From: Methylococcus geothermalis
GTDB taxonomy: Bacteria > Pseudomonadota > Gammaproteobacteria > Methylococcales > Methylococcaceae
Direction: 5' to 3'
DNA: 64,000 nucleotides
NCBI RefSeq assembly: GCF_012769535.1
Contig: NZ_CP046565.1
Span: 1,254,501-1,318,500, forward strand
The notes below the pieces were generated by a model. It saw only the letters and a program-made list of their open reading frames with translations. It ran no database searches and had not been told where the DNA came from. Below are positions 8,770 to 64,000 of the stretch, one piece after another (the first letter of the stretch is position 1; each line of letters begins with the position of its first letter). Position numbers and translations under genes: made by a program.

Positions 8770-10877
8770 TATAACAAATCCACTTGTATCAACGGAGGCA
8801 ACTCTCATTTTTCGGCGCCTGTCCGGCGCAGATGGCGATTGGCGTCATGGCGAATCACACATCGTTGGCGATGCCAATGCTCCACCGGTTGTGTTGCTCG
8901 ATCACCGGCATCAGGTCCACCGTGGCCATGCGGCCCTGATCGACTACCACCCTTCCGTTGACGACCGTGTAACGGGCCTTCTGCGGGGCGCAGAACACCA
9001 CCGCGGCGACCGGATCGTGGAGGGCGCCGGCGAAATCCACGGTATGCAGGTCCAGGCTGAAGAAGTCCGCGCACATGCCTTCGGCGATCGCCCCGATGTC
9101 GCCGCGCCCCAACACCCTGGCGCCGCCCAGCGTCGCCAGTTCCAGCGTTTCCCGCGCCGTCATCCATTCGTTCGAGCGCTTCGGGTGCGAGGGCGAGAGG
9201 TGCATGTATTTCGCCGGACCTTCCGGCGGCCGCAGGCCCATCTTCAGGCGGGCCAGCAAAAAGGCGGCGCGGACTTCCTGCATCATGTTCGAGCTGTCGT
9301 TGCTGGCCGATCCGTCCACGCCCAGCCCGACGTTGACCCCGGCCTCCATGTACTTCTTGATCGGCGCGATGCCGGAAGCCAGCCGCATGTTGGAGGAAGG
9401 ACAGTGCGCAGCGCCGCAGCCGCAGCGGGCGAAGTGGCGGATCTCGTCGTCGTCGACATGGATCGCATGGGCGAACCAGACGTCCTCGCCCAGCCAGTCC
9501 ACGGTTTCCATCCATTCGACCGGACGCATGCCGAATCGGCTCAGGGTATAGCGTTCCTCGTCGAGGGTCTCGCACAGATGGGTGTGCAGGCCGACCTTGT
9601 AGTGGCGGGCCAGCGCGGCGGATTCCTTGAGCAGCTCCGGCGTCACGGTGAATGGCGCGCAGGGGGCGACCACGATTCGGGTCATGGCGCCGTGGGAGGC
9701 GTCGTGATAGGTCTCGATGACGCGCTGGGTGTCCTTGAGGATGAAGTCTTCGTCCTCGACGCAGTCGTCCGGCGGCAGGCCGCCTCTGGATTCGCCCAGC
9801 GACATGGAGCCGCGGCTGCAATGGAAGCGGATGCCGATTTCCCGAGCCGCGTCGATCAGGCAATCGGCGCTGTTACCATTCTTGAAAAGGTAGGTGTGGT
9901 CGAACACCGTGGTGCAGCCGCTCAGCGCCAGTTCGGCCAGTCCCACCAGCGCGCTCAGCCGTGAAGCCTCGGGCGTGATTCGGGCCCAGATCCGGTACTG
10001 CGCCTGCAGCCAGGGAAACAGGTTGTTGTTCTGGGCGGCGGGGAGGCAGCGCGTGAGGGTCTGGTTGAGATGATGGTGGCAATTGACGAAACCCGGCAGC
10101 ACGATCTGGCCGGACAGGTCGATGACCGTGTCGGCCGCCTGCGGCAGCTCGCCGACCGGCCCGACCTTCTTGATGATGCCGTCCTCGGCATAGATGCCGG
10201 CGTTTTTCAGCTCCCGCCGTTCGGTGTCCATCGTGACCAGGATTTCTGCGTTGGTGGCGAGCAGTGTTTTCATGGCGTGAGCCCGGTGTTCCCAGATTTG
10301 CGGTGTTGTCCACCGATGACTTCGAGCGGTACGCCGTGCCGGCGGCTACTGAAGCTTATGGGCTCCCTTGAATCGGGTCAATCGGCGCCGCTTCCGTTCC
10401 GGGCATACGTCTTGCCTGGAACAGGCGTAAACTTTTTGTCGCATTACCATCCCAGGGATATATCCGCTATGGCCAGTTTTTCCCCGCAACATTTGTTGAA
10501 ACGCCTCGTCCTGCTGGCGGTGCTGTGCGCCTCCGGCCTTGCCGGGGCCGACGACCGCGACAAGGCGAACGATCTCCTGCGCGACGCCACCATCACCTTC
10601 AACGAATTCGTCGCCGACCCCAACATGGGCTGGTTCCGCGACAACGTGAAGGATGCGAGGGCTCTGGTGATCGCACCCCAGGTGCTCAAGCTGGGTTTCA
10701 TTTTCGGCGGTTCCGGCGGCAATGCCGTGGTGCTGGTCAAGGACAAGCAGACCGGCGAATGGGGGTACCCGGCGTTCTATACGGCCGGTGCCGTGACCGC
10801 GGGTCTGCAGATCGGCGGCGAGCTGACCGACGTCATCATGATGGTGATGACGGAAGGTGGCATGAATGCGCTGCTCA
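8770..10877. repeat. Segmental duplication, copy 1 (2108 bp)
   Basis: This segment is nearly identical to 23696-25803 in the same orientation with a constant offset of 14926 bp. It carries a complete 8-oxoguanine deaminase gene and the first part of a SYLF-domain gene, cut at 10877. I see at least five substitutions (9179, 9259, 9338, 9355, 9670) and no net indel. The flanks differ completely on both sides. The 199 bp before it (8571-8769) is AT-rich and holds no gene I can support. Confidence 0.97.
8855..10273 (-). CDS. 8-oxoguanine deaminase / amidohydrolase (copy 1)
   Basis: A 472-aa amidohydrolase of the subtype that deaminates 8-oxoguanine to urate (relatives include AtzB/TrzN-like hydrolases). 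Metal-binding features are visible: His66-68 in GFVNCHHHLNQTLTR, HTHLCETLDE, FAHAIHVDDDE and GLGVDGSASND. The motif TRCLPAAQNNNLFPWL is close to characterised 8-oxoguanine deaminases. A cytosolic metal-dependent enzyme in purine salvage or oxidised-base clean-up is expected. It differs from copy 2 at only two residues that I can see (V to I, K to Q). Its 5' side faces the SYLF gene divergently. Confidence 0.85.
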   Translation of the reverse strand: MKTLLATNAEILVTMDTERRELKNAGIYAEDGIIKKVGPVGELPQAADTVIDLSGQIVLPGFVNCHHHLNQTLTRCLPAAQNNNLFPWLQAQYRIWARITPEASRLSALVGLAELALSGCTTVFDHTYLFKNGNSADCLIDAAREIGIRFHCSRGSMSLGESRGGLPPDDCVEDEDFILKDTQRVIETYHDASHGAMTRIVVAPCAPFTVTPELLKESAALARHYKVGLHTHLCETLDEERYTLSRFGMRPVEWMETVDWLGEDVWFAHAIHVDDDEIRHFARCGCGAAHCPSSNMRLASGIAPIKKYMEAGVNVGLGVDGSASNDSSNMMQEVRAAFLLARLKMGLRPPEGPAKYMHLSPSHPKRSNEWMTARETLELATLGGARVLGRGDIGAIAEGMCADFFSLDLHTVDFAGALHDPVAAVVFCAPQKARYTVVNGRVVVDQGRMATVDLMPVIEQHNRWSIGIANDV

Positions 10878-57440: not shown

Positions 57441-57526
57441 TGCTTGCAAAGCCTCCGTTCAGCCGGGACGCGGAATCGCCGACCGGGAAAAGGCCAAGAT
57501 CGAAGCTGAATGAACAGGGGGTAAAT

Positions 57527-58240
57527 ATGGCACGACGCATCATCGTATGGGACCTCGCCACGCGAATATTCCACTGGTCGCTGGTGACCAGCTTTTTCGG
57601 CGCCTATCTGTCGGCCGACAGCGACTACCGGGTGCTGCATGTGATGTTCGGCTACACCATTCTGGGGCTGATCGGTTTCCGGCTACTGTGGGGATTCGTC
57701 GGGCCGCGCTATGCCCGGTTCAGTGAGTTCGTGCGCGGACCGCTCGCGATTTTCCGCTACCTGAAAAGCCTGCTGTCCAAGCACCCCGAGCATTACGTCG
57801 GCCATAACCCCGCGGGGGCCGTCGCCATCGTGCTCCTGCTGTTTCTCGGCATTCTCGTCTGCACTTCCGGCCTGCTGTCCTACGACGAACGCTGGGAGAA
57901 TTCGCTGAAGAGCTTCCACGCCCTCCTTTCCCATTGCATGCTGGCGATCGTGTTCGTCCACATCGGGGCGGCGATCATTTCGGGTTTCCTGCATCACGAA
58001 AACCTCGTCCTTTCCATGCTCACCGGCTACAAGGAAGGCGAGGCGGGCCAATCGATAGTGGGCACGCGGCCCTGGGCGGGGCTGATGCTCGCGGCGGCGA
58101 TCGCTTCGTTCTGGATGCTGGCGCTGCCGGCGAATCCCTTTCGGGACGACACCGGACACGGCGAGGCGGTGGCAACCGCGGATATTCCTGAAAAATCGCA
58201 GGAATCGTTCACGATGTCGTCGAAGTCCGGACGGTTCTGA
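57527..58240 (+). CDS. Cytochrome b561/hydrogenase-type membrane cytochrome b
   Basis: A 237-aa integral membrane protein with about four helices and the conserved start IIVWDLATRIFHWSLVTSFF, where the first heme-ligand His lies in helix 1. Further His residues are in YRVLHVMFGYTILGLIGFRL, KSFHALLSHCMLAIVFVHIG and GFLHHENLVL, matching the cytochrome b561/Ni-Fe-hydrogenase b-type family. It would pass electrons between quinol and a periplasmic c-type partner. ATG 57527 has AGGGGG 6 nt upstream. Three c-type cytochromes lie 2.4 kb downstream. Confidence 0.88.
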   Translation: MARRIIVWDLATRIFHWSLVTSFFGAYLSADSDYRVLHVMFGYTILGLIGFRLLWGFVGPRYARFSEFVRGPLAIFRYLKSLLSKHPEHYVGHNPAGAVAIVLLLFLGILVCTSGLLSYDERWENSLKSFHALLSHCMLAIVFVHIGAAIISGFLHHENLVLSMLTGYKEGEAGQSIVGTRPWAGLMLAAAIASFWMLALPANPFRDDTGHGEAVATADIPEKSQESFTMSSKSGRF

Positions 58241-58259: not shown

Positions 58260-59999
58260 ATGTCGAAGCAGAACGGGTATTTGTTCCCTCTCTTGTTCAT
58301 TGCCGGCGCCTGCGGCTGGGCGGAGACGTCGGCCGAGGATGCGCTGGATCAAGGCCTCGAGGCGGTGCGCCTGCGCCATTATGACGAGGCGTCCGCGCAA
58401 TGGCAGACCTTGGCCGAACGGGGCGACGCCGAGGCGCAATACCGCCTGGGGGCGATGTTCCAGAACGGCCGCGGCGTGCCGAAAGACTATTCGCAGGCAC
58501 TGAAGTGGTTTCGGGCCGCCGCGGGCCAAGGACAGGTCCGCGCACAGTTCGAGCTGGGGCTGATGTACGAGAAAGGCCTCGGCGTCCGCCCCGATCCGGC
58601 TCAGGCGCGGGCATGGTATGAAAAAGCCGCGGCTCAGGGCCATGCGATGGCGCGCAGGCGGCTGGAGACCATGCCTTTCGCCACTACGGATACGGGCGCC
58701 GCTACGGAAGGCGCGCCCGCCCGGACGGACACGGCCTTGCATCGCGCGGCCCGGCGAGGTGACGCCGATGCGGTGCGGGATTTGCTGGCGCGCGGCGTCG
58801 AAATCGACGCATGGGACGACAAAGGCCGTACGCCTTACCGGCTTGCGTTGGAGGCCGGCCATCCCGAGATAGCCCGCTTGCTGGCCGCCGCCGGCGCGGA
58901 CCAGCGCCGGCCCCTGGCGGAGGTCAAGGGTGGGCAAGGAGAGCGGTCGAAGCATCCGACCTCCCGCCTGGGCCCGCAAGACGACATCGGCGCTTATCCC
59001 GGCTGGCCGGCGATCACGGTCGCGGCCTGGCGAGGCCATGCGTCCACCGTGGAAGCATGGCTGGCGCGAGGCGCCGACGTCGCTGCGAGAGCTCCGGACG
59101 GCCATCTCCCTCTGACCCGCGCGGCCTGGAACGGCCATGCCAAAATCGTGAAAACCCTGTTGGCCCACGGGGCGGATGTCAACGCCGCGACGCCGGATGG
59201 CCGGACCGCTCTGATGTGGGCAGCCCTGGAAGGGCATCATGAGACGGTCGTGGCGTTGGCAGCCGGCGGGGCGAACCTGGACGCGACCGATGGGGATGGA
59301 AACACCGCCCTGGCCTGGGCGGCGCAGCGCGGCAAGGCCTCGACCGTGCGGACCTTGTGCGGTCTGGGCGCGGCCAAGGGCATGGCGCGGAAGGACGGCA
59401 GGAACGCCGTCATGCTGGCGGCCATCGGAGGGTACCGGGAAGCCATCGAGGCTCTGTTGGAAGCTTCGGCCGATCCGAACGCCATCGATGCGGAAGGCCA
59501 TACGGCCTTGTGGCTCGCCGTCGACAGAGGGCATGCCGGGATCGTCGATACTCTGCTGGACCATGGCGCCGACTTCGCTCACGATCGGGCATCCGGTCCC
59601 AACAGCCTGATCCGGGCCGCCTGGAAGGGTGATGACAATGTGGTCGAAATGCTGTTGGCGCATGGCGCCCTCGTGGACGCGCCGAGCGCGGACGGCAATA
59701 CAGCCTTGACCGTGGCTGCCAGCCGCGGACATACCGGCGTGGTCCGCATGCTTCTGGCGAAAGGCGCCAATCCCGATCTTCGGAACAGGCGGAACATGAC
59801 TGCGCTGATGCTGGCGGCACAAGCCGGCCACGGCGAGATTCTGGCGGCTTTGCTGGAGGCCGGCGCCGATCCGGCCCTCCGCAACGAGCACAGGCAGAGC
59901 GCCGTCTCGCTGGCCCGAGCCGGGGGCCATGAAGACTGCGTCAAGATCCTCGAAAAAGACTCGGCCCGCTGGAAGGTACTTTTCGGTTCCCTTCGCTAG
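58260..59999 (+). CDS. Periplasmic Sel1-repeat plus ankyrin-repeat protein
   Basis: A 579-aa protein with a signal peptide (LFPLLFIAGACGWAE), two or more Sel1-like repeats at about residues 55-135 (AQYRLGAMFQNGRGVPKDYS, FELGLMYEKGLGVRPDPAQA) and then roughly ten or eleven ankyrin repeats to the C-terminus (LMWAALEGHHETVVALAAGG, LTVAASRGHTGVVRMLLAKG, LMLAAQAGHGEILAALLEAG). Both repeat types bind proteins, so a scaffold or inhibitor role is likely. The start is 20 nt after the cytochrome b gene, suggesting co-expression. Confidence 0.88.
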   Translation: MSKQNGYLFPLLFIAGACGWAETSAEDALDQGLEAVRLRHYDEASAQWQTLAERGDAEAQYRLGAMFQNGRGVPKDYSQALKWFRAAAGQGQVRAQFELGLMYEKGLGVRPDPAQARAWYEKAAAQGHAMARRRLETMPFATTDTGAATEGAPARTDTALHRAARRGDADAVRDLLARGVEIDAWDDKGRTPYRLALEAGHPEIARLLAAAGADQRRPLAEVKGGQGERSKHPTSRLGPQDDIGAYPGWPAITVAAWRGHASTVEAWLARGADVAARAPDGHLPLTRAAWNGHAKIVKTLLAHGADVNAATPDGRTALMWAALEGHHETVVALAAGGANLDATDGDGNTALAWAAQRGKASTVRTLCGLGAAKGMARKDGRNAVMLAAIGGYREAIEALLEASADPNAIDAEGHTALWLAVDRGHAGIVDTLLDHGADFAHDRASGPNSLIRAAWKGDDNVVEMLLAHGALVDAPSADGNTALTVAASRGHTGVVRMLLAKGANPDLRNRRNMTALMLAAQAGHGEILAALLEAGADPALRNEHRQSAVSLARAGGHEDCVKILEKDSARWKVLFGSLR

Positions 60000-60625
60000 A
60001 TCCCTCCTGCAGGGTCCGCCCTCGCCGAGGCGGACGCCTCGCTCGCGCGCGGTCTTCTCGCCCCGCCGCATCTGCCGGTTCCGGCTCCTCTCCCTCGCGA
60101 ACCGGCATCACTACGCTGCGTGGATATCGTTCTACGCTTTTACTCGCGCCAACGCTGCCGCTCCCACGGCGGAGCGGCCAGTGGGGTCCGCCCTGAGAGT
60201 ATTCGAGGGAACGCATATTTCCCGCGCGGAGTAGCCGCAGTCGGGTCGCAATGATGAGGATGACGCTTTCAGGAGACAGCGTGCAACCATCCCGCCGACA
60301 TCGGCCAGCCTCCGCGTGGCGGTGACTATAAGGGATCGCTTCCGAAGATATCCGGCAAATTTGATCTGCATCAAGAACTCGGCACCAAGAGGCGTTGCCT
60401 GCTGGCGACGAAAATCCGCACAAAATAGAGAGGGTTATCGTAGTTGCATGTTTCGTCAAGGAAATATGTGATGGCACGTATATTGTTTGTGTCATGGCAG
60501 CGAAGTCATGGAGATGCCGGGCGGACATCCTTCAACGCTTCGGTGATGAAGGATTCCGGACCGGCTTGGAGCCAAGGACTGAATCCTCCATCGTGGTATC
60601 GACCCATCAATATGAGGTTAGGATT
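60000..60625. other. 626-bp intergenic region before the cytochrome cluster
   Basis: No credible gene. The first 240 bp are GC-rich; the rest is AT-richer and probably carries the promoter and leader of the first cytochrome gene. I see no convincing -35/-10 pair and no known riboswitch. Confidence 0.5.
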
Positions 60626-61831
60626 ATGACGAAAGAACTTGGGAATTCTCGATCTGGAAAATGTACGGCCGGCGGGATGCTGGCCAAGCGGGCTCTGTCA
60701 TTGGCGGTGGTCGTGGCCGCGACGGGGAGTGTCTCCGGCGAGGCCTTTGCCGCGCTGACCTATGCCGGCAACTGCCAAATGTGCCATGGCGCTTACGACG
60801 GTGCGTCGGGGAGCACCGCCGGTGGGATCGGGCCGGCGTTGTCGGGAGCGAAGAAGAACGCTTCGGCGACCAAAGCGGCTGTCCGTGCTGGCGGCACCAT
60901 GGGATCGATGGGCGCCGCCTGGTCGGACGCCGATCTCAACGCCGTGGCGCTGGAAATAGGAGGAGCCGCGGATCTCGGGACCGCGACCCCGACACCCGCA
61001 CCGACCGCTACGCCGACACCCGCTCCGACGGCCACGCCGGCACCGACCAGCACGCCGGCTCCGACGGCCACGCCCCATCCGTCGCCGACCCCGTCCCCTA
61101 CCGGGACGCCCGGTCCTTCACCCACGCCATCGCCCACGGCGACACCCAGTCCGTCTCCGACCCCCGAGCCCTGCACCGATGAAGCGAGGCCGGAGATCGA
61201 CACCATTCCGTCGCCGTGGGATGCCAACGAAGGGAAGGAACTCCTGTTCAGCGTCAGCGCCCTCGACTGCGATGACGATACTCTAACCATCAAAGCGAAA
61301 GGGCTGCCCTCCGGAGCCACCATGACCCAGGAGTTCGATCCGGATGTCCGCAAACAGGTCGCCACGGTTCGCTGGACGCCGGGGCCGGAGGCCGTGGGCA
61401 GGGTGCACCCTGTCGTGTTCGTGGCCGTCGACAAGGACAGCAACGGACAAAGGAAGGAGGTGTCGATACCTCGCTGGACCGCCATCCGGGTATGGCCGGC
61501 CAATACGACGCCCGAAGCGGCAGCGGTCGAGGTCGTGGCGATTCAACGCGCTCAATGGTCGGCCGTTCAGAACCAGCTCGTTCTGGCGGGACGCATCAAG
61601 TTCAGCAGGATTCTGACCAAGTCCGAGCGGCAAGCGCTGGTCGCCGATCCCATCGCCATCAGGGATGCCACCAGCCACGAAGTCATCGGCCGGGTCAATG
61701 CCAGTGCATCGGGCAAGTGGTCTACCCGAATCCCGCTGGAAAGCGGGAAGGTGCCATGCTCCGTGGAGGTCGATTTCCATGGCGAAATGGGGTCGCGTCC
61801 GGTCAAGCGCGCTCCGTCGCAGTGCAACTGA
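60626..61831 (+). CDS. Secreted mono-heme c-type cytochrome with Thr/Pro linker (paralogue 1)
   Basis: A 401-aa protein. It has a Sec signal peptide ([22 protein letters not shown]), then a small cytochrome c domain with heme site NCQMCHGAY and a Met-containing loop ([11 protein letters not shown]), then a linker of about 60 residues of [10 protein letters not shown]-type repeats. An Ig-like domain ([40 protein letters not shown]) follows, with a C-terminal domain ([20 protein letters not shown]) ending KRAPSQCN. Export and cell-surface or periplasmic electron transfer are inferred. The exact partner is unknown. Confidence 0.85.
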
Positions 61832-61935
61832 TCGAAAAAGGGAAGGGACCTGCTTTCCCAACTCCAGTTGTTGACTACATTTAGTCTCACGTTCCAGAGG
61901 CATGGATAATCTGGAATGTTAGAGGTTTCTGATTT

Positions 61936-61993
61936 GTTGCTCGAGAAGGGTCACGGCCCCGCAAAGATACCTTCGGGGGCCGTGATGAGCAAC
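61936..61993 (+). promoter_or_regulatory. Two-tier hairpin in the leader of cytochrome paralogue 2
   Basis: GTTGCTC (61936-61942) pairs with GAGCAAC (61987-61993); inside, TCACGGCCCC (61951-61960) pairs with GGGGCCGTGA (61976-61985). It lies 64 nt before the ATG. It could be a terminator of gene 1 or a regulatory leader structure; no U-tract follows. Confidence 0.5.
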
Positions 61994-62056
61994 GTGACAG
62001 GGGGGCCGGCCTGGAGCCGGACGACTTTCCATGACATGTAACTTGGGGTTGACATT

Positions 62057-63244
62057 ATGAAAGAGACATTGGCTCGTTCCGGCGGGAAACCGGCCGGAAT
62101 TCGCAACAAGGCGTTATCGTTGGCCGTGGTCATGGCTGCCGCGGGAACCGTTTCCACCGATGCATTTGCGGCGGCGACCTATTCCGGCAGTTGCCAGGGG
62201 TGTCACGGCGCCTATGACGCCAACACTGGGCGTACGGCCGGCGGTTACGGTCCGGCTCTTTCGGGAGCGAAGAAGAACGCTTCGGCGACCAAGAAGGCGA
62301 TTGCCAACGTCGCTGCGATGAACAGCTTGAGCAATCTCACCAACGCCGACTTGAATGCCATCGCACGGGAAATAGGTGGCGCGGCGGATCTTCCGGTGGC
62401 GACGGCGACGCCCACACCCACACCGGCTCCGACGGCCACCCCGGCCCCGACGCCTAAACCGACCCCGGCTCCGACGACCACGCCGGCTCCGACGCCTAAA
62501 CCGACCCCGGCTCCGACGACCACGCCGGCGCCCACGCCCGCTCCGTGCGCGGATGAATCAGAGCCTGAACTCGACACCATTCCGTCGCCGTGGGACGCCA
62601 ACGTTGGCAAGGAGCTCAAGTTCACGGTGAGCGCCCTCGACTGCGACGATGATTCGTTGGTGATCAAGGCCAAGGGTCTTCCGAAGGGTGCGAGCATGAC
62701 CCAAGGGTTCGATGTCAACACCCGCAAGCAGGTCGCAACCATCACCTGGACCCCGGGACCGGACGCCGAAGGCAAGATCTACCATGTCACGTTCACCGCC
62801 GTAGAGTCGGAAGTCCGCGCCCAGAAACGGCGGGAGGGGGAGAGCAAGCAGGATGATCAGGGCCATTCCTCGGCATCTCGTTCCACCGATATTCGCGTAT
62901 GGCCGGCGAACACCACGCCGGAAGCGGGAGCCGTCGAAGCGGTCGTGATCCAGCAGGCGCAATGGCAGTCTTCCAAGAAGACCGGCAAGCTCGCCGTGAA
63001 CGGCTCCATCAAGTTCAGCAAGCTTGTGACCGCAACTGAACGCGCTGCTTTGCTGGCCAATCCGGTGATCATCCGGACGGATAGCACTCAGGAGATCATC
63101 GGGCAAGCGACCGCGAACTCTTCCGGCAAGTGGTCGGCCAATCTTCCGTTGGCCAGCACGGCTGTCCCCTGCGTGGTGGATGCCGAGTTCGTGAGCGACA
63201 CCGCTTCCCGCCCGGTGAAACGCGCGCCGTCGCAATGCAAGTGA
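62057..63244 (+). CDS. Secreted mono-heme c-type cytochrome with Thr/Pro linker (paralogue 2)
   Basis: A 395-aa paralogue of the preceding protein with the same order: signal peptide (LSLAVVMAAAGTVSTDAFA), heme motif SCQGCHGAYD, the block [20 protein letters not shown] with a candidate axial Met in VAAMNSLSNL, a linker of TPAPTTTPAPTPKP repeats, the Ig-like domain [20 protein letters not shown]-type and the C-terminal domain LAVNGSIKFSKLVTATERAA ending KRAPSQCK. A charged insert (ESEVRAQKRREGESKQDDQG) distinguishes it. It is probably the product of tandem duplication. Confidence 0.85.
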   Translation: MKETLARSGGKPAGIRNKALSLAVVMAAAGTVSTDAFAAATYSGSCQGCHGAYDANTGRTAGGYGPALSGAKKNASATKKAIANVAAMNSLSNLTNADLNAIAREIGGAADLPVATATPTPTPAPTATPAPTPKPTPAPTTTPAPTPKPTPAPTTTPAPTPAPCADESEPELDTIPSPWDANVGKELKFTVSALDCDDDSLVIKAKGLPKGASMTQGFDVNTRKQVATITWTPGPDAEGKIYHVTFTAVESEVRAQKRREGESKQDDQGHSSASRSTDIRVWPANTTPEAGAVEAVVIQQAQWQSSKKTGKLAVNGSIKFSKLVTATERAALLANPVIIRTDSTQEIIGQATANSSGKWSANLPLASTAVPCVVDAEFVSDTASRPVKRAPSQCK

Positions 63245-63300
63245 CCTGCGATACCTGAAAAAACGGGTTTGATATGGATTTGAAGGGACAAACTCGTTCA

Positions 63301-63330
63301 CGCTCCTCTTCGTGAGGGGAGGAGCGTTTT
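63301..63330 (+). terminator. Likely intrinsic terminator after paralogue 2
   Basis: CGCTCCTC and GAGGAGCG form an 8-bp stem, followed by TTTTC and, 9 nt on, TTTTTG. It is 57 nt after the stop. The next gene therefore probably has its own promoter within 63331-63551. Confidence 0.6.
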
Positions 63331-63551
63331 CGATACTTTTTGTTTGACTATCTTTATTTGAGACGCTCGTTCGGTATTGCCCGAGTTATATGCTGGGAAA
63401 TTCGAATCAGCGGGCGTTTAATCCGTTGTCGCTCGGGAAATACCGCAGGGAATGGCGGTCTCCAAGGATTTAGAGGGATAGGGTGGTGTAGAAAGGCGCC
63501 ACCCATAAGGGAGCGACGCTTTGTTATGACATGAAACTTGGGAGTTTCGAT

Positions 63552-64000
63552 ATGAATGTCAAATTAGTGAAATCAGGAACCAAGCCATCCGGCTATCAAT
63601 TCAGGACCTTGTCTATGGCAGTCATTGTTGCCGCGAGTGGCGGTTTCGCCTCCGAAACATTTGCCGCGGCCACCTATTCCGGCAGTTGCCAGGGGTGTCA
63701 CGGCGCCTATGACGCCAACACCGGCAGTACGGCCGGCGGTTACGGCCCGGCTCTTTCGGGAGCGAAGAAGAACGCTTCGGCGACCAAGAAGGCGATTGCC
63801 AACGTCGCTGCGATGAACAGCTTGAGCAATCTCAGCGACGCCGACTTGAATGCCATTGCCCTGGAAATAGATGGCGCGGCGGATCTTCCGGTGGCGACGG
63901 CGACGCCCACACCCACACCGGCTCCGACGATCCAGCCAACGCCGCTCCCGACGATCCAGCCAACGCCGCTCCCGACGATCCAGCCAACGCCGCTCCCGAC
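63552..64000 (+). CDS. Secreted mono-heme c-type cytochrome (paralogue 3, cut by window end)
   Basis: The first 149 codons of a third paralogue. A signal peptide (FRTLSMAVIVAASGGFASETFA) precedes the heme motif SCQGCHGAYDANTGSTAGGY. The cytochrome domain is nearly identical to paralogue 2 at DNA level ([20 protein letters not shown]), then the linker switches to a new repeat, PTIQPTPLPTIQPTPLP. The rest lies beyond base 64000. The high identity of the heme domain with paralogue 2 points to recent duplication or gene conversion. Confidence 0.85.
   Translation, partial: MNVKLVKSGTKPSGYQFRTLSMAVIVAASGGFASETFAAATYSGSCQGCHGAYDANTGSTAGGYGPALSGAKKNASATKKAIANVAAMNSLSNLSDADLNAIALEIDGAADLPVATATPTPTPAPTIQPTPLPTIQPTPLPTIQPTPLP

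Follow-up and report, generated by a model that had tools for sequence, protein, structure and literature searches.

Methylococcus capsulatus reduces Fe(III) and delivers electrons to electrodes; when MCA0421 is deleted, the current falls but does not vanish (PMC6281684). As the current survives this deletion, other electron-transfer parts are missing from the picture. The closest described systems include MtrCAB and the MtrAB-type conduit (PCC) reported from Methylobacter and charted across the order in 2026 (PMC13322032), along with the surface c553o cytochromes of Methylococcus (MCA0338, MCA0421, MCA0423, MCA2160 and MCA2259; PMC4831470, PMC4257694). Here we describe a locus of Methylococcus geothermalis in which three consecutive genes for monoheme cytochromes, below called the array, lie near two multiheme cytochrome genes and a gene for a beta-barrel protein. 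The window analysed is a stretch of 64,000 nucleotides (contig NZ_CP046565.1, positions 1,254,501 to 1,318,500 of the forward strand, assembly GCF_012769535.1) from a genome that forms a single contig of 3.37 Mb.

As in MtrCAB and the Methylobacter conduit, a predicted outer-membrane barrel and multiheme cytochromes stand here in one gene run; the barrel protein differs by its extra N-terminal parts, and the cytochromes carry 21 and 11 CxxCH motifs versus the decaheme type. The available part of PMC13322032 holds no mention of the present conduit type. With the c553o group the array has in common c-type cytochromes with immunoglobulin-like (Ig-like) or PKD extras, whereas the c553o-type protein of locus L062 is multiheme with the domain N-terminal and the array proteins are monoheme with the domain C-terminal. 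O-glycosylation in Neisseria uses the pgl system, which differs from the candidate GT39-type transferase found here. Neisseria glycosylates the cytochromes CycB and CcoP (PMC11130364), hence envelope cytochromes with O-glycans, here predicted only, are common to both. An actinobacterial GT39 enzyme modifies the linkers of secreted GH6 enzymes (PMC11727336); the likeness lies in an S/T-bearing linker between folded modules as substrate, here a candidate one, and the difference in that theirs are glycoside hydrolases in actinobacteria. The kinds of parts discussed below (class I cytochrome, Ig domains, porin-cytochrome conduit and bacterial O-mannosylation) are known, and their combination was not found described in the literature searched. 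That literature, with subscription papers mostly outside its coverage, gave no report joining Methylococc-, immunoglobulin-like, cytochrome c and linker, and none was apparent on glycosylated outer-membrane cytochromes in electron transfer.

Domain order and recombination in the array

The three array genes (Table 1, with domain limits set from alignments) are predicted to encode exported class I c-type cytochromes with a single His/Met-type heme domain. Each protein has a signal-like N-terminal stretch ending AFA/A (judged by eye) and exactly one CxxCH (n=3), and the distal Met is aligned in all three, its Met92 column being invariant. The heme domain of about 70 residues belongs to class I cytochrome c (Pfam PF13442 Cytochrome_CBB3 / PF00034), with PF13442 scores of 30.7, 22.3 and 24.8 for genes 1, 2 and 3 and a cut-off of 27 that gene 1 alone exceeds. 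Thus CxxCH, the aligned distal Met and the domain length are shared with class I cytochromes, while the array proteins differ by fusion to a linker and two Ig-like domains, and genes 2 and 3 by falling below the cut-off. A first-pass annotation, made from the letters of the window, had proposed one four-part order for all three genes and had extrapolated it for gene 3 from the heme domain and linker start; the complete gene 3 in the genome bears this out, running from class I cytochrome c through a Thr/Pro linker and an Ig-like domain to a Cys-ending C-terminal domain. The same three-gene array is found in Methylococcus capsulatus Texas, the nearest named relative found, between matching neighbours, and in the genus mate G011 (G000 denotes the present genome, other G numbers the comparison genomes and L numbers the fetched loci), hence it is no artefact of assembly or chance. 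The CxxCH motif is retained in the orthologues of both. A contig scan with the three C-terminal domains found M. capsulatus Texas only; the profile searches used below are far more sensitive.

Both domains behind the linker fit an Ig-like/cadherin-like beta-sandwich fold, as judged from a structure model and its PDB matches. The model, built on 62 relatives, has a mean per-residue confidence (pLDDT) of 94.6. Its first domain aligns with the cadherin-like part of streptococcal SrpA (Z 10.8, root-mean-square deviation 1.9 over 100 residues) and by sequence profile with the surface protein R28 (E 5.3e-6). Most top structure matches are limited to this first domain; alignments spanning model residues 3-217 come from tandem pairs, Fat4 among them (Z 9.0, root-mean-square deviation 4.9), and the best Foldseek TM-score over both domains is 0.50 (intimin D00-D0). 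For the second domain of the three array proteins we found no trustworthy Pfam or NCBIfam family match, and He_PIG and Big_9 were each matched in 6 of the 62 relatives. Two cysteines, one in a VPC motif and one terminal, are widely retained in this domain and likely form a disulfide. Going by the model, the C-terminal domain is an Ig-like family without a curated name. It had been annotated as unique, which does not hold, as the domain is Ig-like and occurs in 69 of 311 genomes; it remains so that no curated family matches it in a trustworthy way, and we found no described family with a known function.

These 69 genomes, detected with a 24-row profile at E 1e-6, belong to 24 of the 50 genera in our comparison of the order. 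We took 84 open reading frames (ORFs) with the domain from the loci around the best matches, hence no random sample of the profile-match places; L098-L107 were excluded from the set, the same places being represented by L108-L117. Alignment A7 kept 62 of the 84, the others being dropped for scores below 40 bits, lack of an Ig-profile match, unsuitable length or, in one case, as the G013 relic. A CxxCH is present in 64 of the 84, exactly one in 60 and none in 20, heme counts that are lower bounds as some ORFs end at contig edges. The domain lies at most 50 residues from the C-terminus in 80, and 49 combine one N-terminal CxxCH with an Ig-profile match and the terminal domain. A Pro-rich stretch of at least 25 residues occurs in 25, and the linkers of the relatives vary between TPAPTA repeats, PTAA repeats, Cys-bearing repeats and none. 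In the genus mate G014, two (L053) or three (L055) cytochrome domains precede the linker, Ig-like and terminal-domain part. In L111, L112 and L113, from other families of the order, the linker is a Cys-bearing repeat (TCTAPQVLQNNVCVTPS-like) and not of the Pro/Thr type, and the small CxxCH heads look by eye unlike class I cytochromes. A related Ig-like domain stands at the N-terminus of the c553o-type proteins L062 and L010, and in L062, which has 9 CxxCH, this stretch matched the bacterial Ig family Big_6 at 1.1e-5, narrowly missing the cut-off; we take both as MCA0338-like c553o proteins, judging by PKD and multiheme Pfam matches and size.

The resemblance of the Ig-like domains to adhesin and cadherin domains (SrpA, R28) would agree with surface structural or adhesive proteins, or with binders of copper or iron, in which the heme is incidental. 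We consider this very unlikely, as CxxCH and the distal Met are retained in the array, a single CxxCH is the rule in the wider set (60 of 84, against 20 with none) and multiheme genes are linked to the array. Metal binding had also been put forward in the first-pass annotation; we found nothing supporting it, and no metal-site search was made.

The heme domains of genes 2 and 3, noticed before as nearly identical in DNA, agree at 95.0%, the Ig-like domains of this pair at 67.2% and its C-terminal domains at 66.0%. Against the Texas orthologues the heme-domain DNA of genes 2 and 3 agrees at 79.2% and 79.6%, and their Ig-like plus C-terminal domains at 82-88%, versus 66-67% between the paralogues. 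The near-identity begins at the heme-domain start and stops within the linker. This pattern of DNA identity shows gene conversion, by which genes 2 and 3 came to share the heme domain and the first part of the linker. The linkers hold 19 Thr in 65, 17 in 51 and 46 in 182 residues in genes 1, 2 and 3. They do differ in repeat unit, as had been proposed, that of gene 3 being a 24-bp unit in 21.1 copies with 96% matches which reads PTI(Q/R)PTP(L/F). With slightly wider limits, linker lengths are 71, 57 and 189 residues here, 75, 53 and 73 in Texas and 85, 105 and 89 in G011; copy number varies too, with three-gene arrays in Texas and G011 and four genes in G020. With gene conversion, linker turnover and relatives of one, two and three hemes, the evolving modular system first suggested is borne out and reaches further than had been proposed.

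Neighbouring genes, distribution and joint loss

The b-type cytochrome gene reported close to the array is a cytochrome b561 gene two genes upstream, with an ankyrin/Sel1 repeat protein between. Downstream on the array strand follow GtrA (PF04138, 7e-25) and a GT2 glycosyltransferase (PF00535, 1e-28). Facing these is an opposite-strand run of a 21-CxxCH cytochrome, an 11-CxxCH cytochrome, the barrel protein and a protein O-mannosyltransferase (PMT), with spacings of 55, 6 and 36 bp. The PMT matches PF02366 (85.6 bits, 5e-24, cut-off 22.7) and PF16192 (60 bits, 3e-16, cut-off 32.4), which makes it a candidate GT39-type protein O-mannosyltransferase.

The model of the barrel protein, which is of moderate confidence (mean pLDDT 73, predicted TM-score 0.51), shows an N-terminal beta domain, TPR helices and about 22 C-terminal strands by manual count, and its best PDB matches are generic outer-membrane barrels, hence the protein is probably located in the outer membrane. 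Such a barrel adjoining multiheme cytochromes is the arrangement of a porin-cytochrome conduit. The sole Pfam match of the protein is TPR_6 at E 0.01, below the cut-off; the N-terminal beta domain has no Pfam match, and calling it AMIN-like is a guess. For an identity with MtrB or PioB no Pfam match appeared at E 0.01, and the structure search returned generic barrels.

We compared 38 genomes of the family, including the genus mates G010-G014 and, from other genera, G020, G037 and those of g14. The barrel, beyond relics, is present in six (G000, G010, G011, G014, G020 and G037, where the copy ends at a contig edge), and these are exactly the six with Pro-rich-linker members of the C-terminal-domain family. 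The linkers were checked in ORFs read from all 18 family genomes with a domain match at E 1e-6, the secondary matches being covered in part; among the ORFs read, the remaining 12 of the 18 had no Pro-rich-linker member, and in G012 and G013 nothing beyond a relic and the c553o-type domain was present. The match gave 3.6e-7 in a Fisher test (6/0/0/32), a value that treats kin genomes as independent where the true origins are about three, plus losses. PMT_4TMC is found in 10 of the 38 genomes, namely all six of the genus, G020 and three of g14, the last with a distant type.

The array-GtrA-GT2 order recurs in G020, which carries ankyrin, a four-gene array, GtrA, GT2, a 593-residue NPCBM protein, PMT, the barrel and the two multiheme cytochrome genes; no b561 gene turned up in those stretches of this genome that were read. 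The NPCBM protein (L048, 11441-13222), named for its C-terminal domain, lies between GT2 and PMT. The G037 contig opens inside a Pro-rich-linker member followed by GT2 and by methyltransferase-like and GtrA-like ORFs, the last two recognised by eye. On another contig of this genome a 32-CxxCH protein with an MtrC/MtrF-type Pfam match (1.6e-35) adjoins the barrel (L072, 1-3726, minus strand, open at the contig end). Its 32 CxxCH equal the 21 plus 11 of the separate cytochromes here, and it may be a fused or rearranged counterpart of the pair, or a coincidence.

Two genus mates have lost both sides of the locus, the array with b561 and ankyrin as well as the barrel with the two multiheme genes, save for short relics. 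G012 lacks b561, ankyrin and the whole three-gene array; about 21 residues remain of the barrel and a 46-residue fragment of the 21-CxxCH gene. PMT and GtrA persist there, and GT2 is frameshifted (L066, about 9311-10347), possibly through cassette decay or a sequencing error. G013 retains a 3' piece of gene 3 from the array and two short pieces of the barrel, and it lacks b561 and ankyrin; from the barrel remnant to the short-chain dehydrogenase/reductase (SDR) gene there is no multiheme match and no ORF with at least two CxxCH, and PMT, GtrA and GT2 stay. These are losses at this locus, which is where b561 and the multiheme genes were looked for. Part of the loss could be one shared event, and the small frameshifts could be assembly errors. 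The loss of both sides of the cassette in two genomes ties array and conduit together.

A possible glycosylated route at the outer membrane

With just short of even confidence, we suggest that the array encodes O-glycosylated stalk cytochromes serving a porin-multiheme conduit, all as one functional unit. Besides the three cytochromes, the unit would include cytochrome b561, the ankyrin/Sel1 protein and, as its outer-membrane conduit, the 21-CxxCH cytochrome, the 11-CxxCH cytochrome and the TPR-bearing barrel protein. Each heme head would be held by its long Thr/Pro linker on the two tandem Ig-like domains; GtrA, GT2 and PMT would most likely add sugars to the Thr-rich linkers, stiffening and shielding the stalks, and the heads, at the outer membrane, would exchange electrons with the conduit in one direction or the other. 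The conduit may thereby be an additional outer-membrane route beside the known M. capsulatus surface cytochromes. Domains, heme motifs, the order of the genes, the phyletic match, the co-loss and the gene conversion are observed; the glycosylation, the location, the direction of electron flow and the formation of a complex we infer. The role in electron transfer first proposed for these genes gains support from the linked 21- and 11-CxxCH cytochromes, the barrel and the co-loss, and the cell-surface location proposed with it is plausible. A more elaborate version, which we think unlikely, sees here a novel extracellular layer for electron transfer in aerobic methanotrophs, a flexible brush of mucin-like O-mannosylated single-heme stalks around a 32-heme (21 + 11) barrel conduit, with heads swapped by gene conversion and stalk length set by repeat number.

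Class I monoheme cytochromes are commonly periplasmic, and the array proteins might instead be periplasmic shuttles, whose heads swing on unglycosylated linkers from b561 or other inner-membrane donors to the conduit on its periplasmic side, with the two Ig-like domains docked to peptidoglycan or to the TPR part of the barrel protein. The predicted N-terminal beta domain and TPR helices of the latter would face the periplasm, and the periplasmic fraction of M. capsulatus Bath yielded five monoheme cytochromes (PMC4831470). We hold this to be possible, if on the unlikely side, since it leaves the adjoining GtrA-GT2-PMT unexplained and since the related Ig-like domain occurs in the c553o-type L062 and L010, whose group comes partly from the Bath surface (PMC4831470). 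One Bath protein, MCA2181 ('class I cytochrome c fused to a conserved hypothetical protein', PMC4831470), was tried as an array gene and rejected, as a better candidate lies elsewhere. This is a 116-residue CxxCH protein followed by a 152-residue hypothetical at 1331175-1332037 (contig C1 of G000), at the edge of a copC/ZnuA-like cluster with a CopC gene and, by eye, ZnuA-like and permease-like ORFs at about 1332-1343 kb; a second CopC gene lies at 956 kb. By interpolation of locus numbers, without a sequence match, the cluster would be CRC3 (MCA2168-2179) of PMC4831470. As the array is about 12 kb from this candidate, the periplasmic detection of MCA2181 carries no weight for it.

Several observations weigh against stalk cytochromes serving the conduit. 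The six-of-six match covers three genera and is phylogenetically non-independent. In G037 the linker protein is cut by the contig end with its heme domain outside the contig, and this genome, with linker protein, GT2 and GtrA-like ORF present, gave no PMT_4TMC match. The three g14 genomes have their distant PMT without Pro-rich-linker members. PMT and GtrA outlive the array in both G012 and G013, and GT2 does in G013, so other substrates may exist. The barrel is also found in five genomes of other families, four of them with adjoining multiheme-like sequence, where G056 and G072 gave one C-terminal-domain profile match each at 1e-6 and the other three none; as it occurs there without the array, the array would be at most accessory. 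Among the copper-regulated cytochromes in Table 1 of PMC4831470 none lies between MCA2160 and MCA2259, the interpolated Bath place of the array, so that a Bath array, if at that place, went unseen as copper-regulated and draws no support from expression.

The barrel with multiheme-like sequence but no known array in other families, and PMT and GtrA outlasting the array, also speak for array and conduit being independent, with the island shared by descent and PMT, GtrA and GT2 glycosylating something else. This seems distinctly improbable to us, given that the neighbourhood matches in two genera and partly in a third, together with the six-of-six phyletic match and the joint loss in two genomes.

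Mapped features, regulatory candidates and meaning

Table 1. Array genes, their parts and nearby candidate elements, in window positions
Feature	Position	Strand	Basis or remark
Cytochrome b561 gene	57524-58240	+	PF01292 2e-22; two genes upstream of array
Exported-looking ankyrin/Sel1 repeat protein	58260-59999	+	between b561 and gene 1; homologue upstream of G020 array
Sigma-54-like element TGGCAC-N5-TTGTT, candidate promoter	60472-60487	+	upstream of gene 1
Gene 1, predicted exported monoheme cytochrome, 401 residues	60626-61831	+	ORF, alignments, Pfam
Gene 1 heme domain	~60755-60976	+	alignments
Gene 1 Thr/Pro linker	~60977-61171	+	alignments
Gene 1 Ig-like domain	~61169-61501	+	alignments
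Gene 1 C-terminal Ig-like domain	61502-61828	+	alignments
Predicted hairpins, gene 1-gene 2 spacer	61879-62056	+	57 predicted pairs
Gene 2, 395 residues, domain order as gene 1	62057-63244	+	ORF, alignments
Gene 2 heme domain	~62174-62392	+	alignments
Gene 2 linker	~62393-62542	+	alignments
Gene 2 Ig-like domain	~62543-62908	+	alignments
Gene 2 C-terminal domain	62909-63241	+	alignments
Gene-conversion tract, gene 2 (heme domain and first linker codons)	62175-62434, approximate	+	DNA identity
Terminator-like hairpin between genes 2 and 3	63306-63324	+	weak
Gene 3, 514 residues, start 63552 (or 63531)	63552-64000 in window	+	ends at window-equivalent 65096
Gene 3 heme domain	~63669-63887	+	alignments
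Gene 3 24-bp repeat linker	from ~63888	+	alignments
Partner conversion tract, gene 3	~63670-63929	+	DNA identity

The sigma-54-like element stands at a matching place upstream of gene 1 in three three-gene loci (also L020 at 6955 and L050 at 6837), with diverged flanks. It has one mismatch, at a position that matters, to the sigma-54 consensus. Matches with at most two mismatches are common in these loci (eight in L006, two of them with one mismatch), and because such matches are this common, conservation is the one argument for the candidate site. The predicted spacer hairpins, which are conserved, show three pairs with two-sided change and several broken ones among only three sequences. In the 13.5-kb region we found 20 terminator-like hairpins where shuffles gave 13.2 expected, and a search for sigma-70-type promoters gave 3 against 3.2 expected. 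Rfam at gathering scores detected no known riboswitch in the window, the matches being three tRNAs only; with the threshold relaxed to E 5, two matches appeared in the array region, both well short of their gathering scores, and the spacer hairpins had none close to one.

Single-heme Ig proteins marked by the C-terminal domain form a family that spans this order of methane oxidisers, and the literature searched gave no description of it. In a proteobacterium, the adjoining glycosyltransferase genes would form a cassette for bacterial O-mannosylation, and its candidate substrate is an obvious one. For the electron transfer of Methylococcus, the locus puts forward a second conduit, served by accessory cytochromes of its own, as a concrete candidate.

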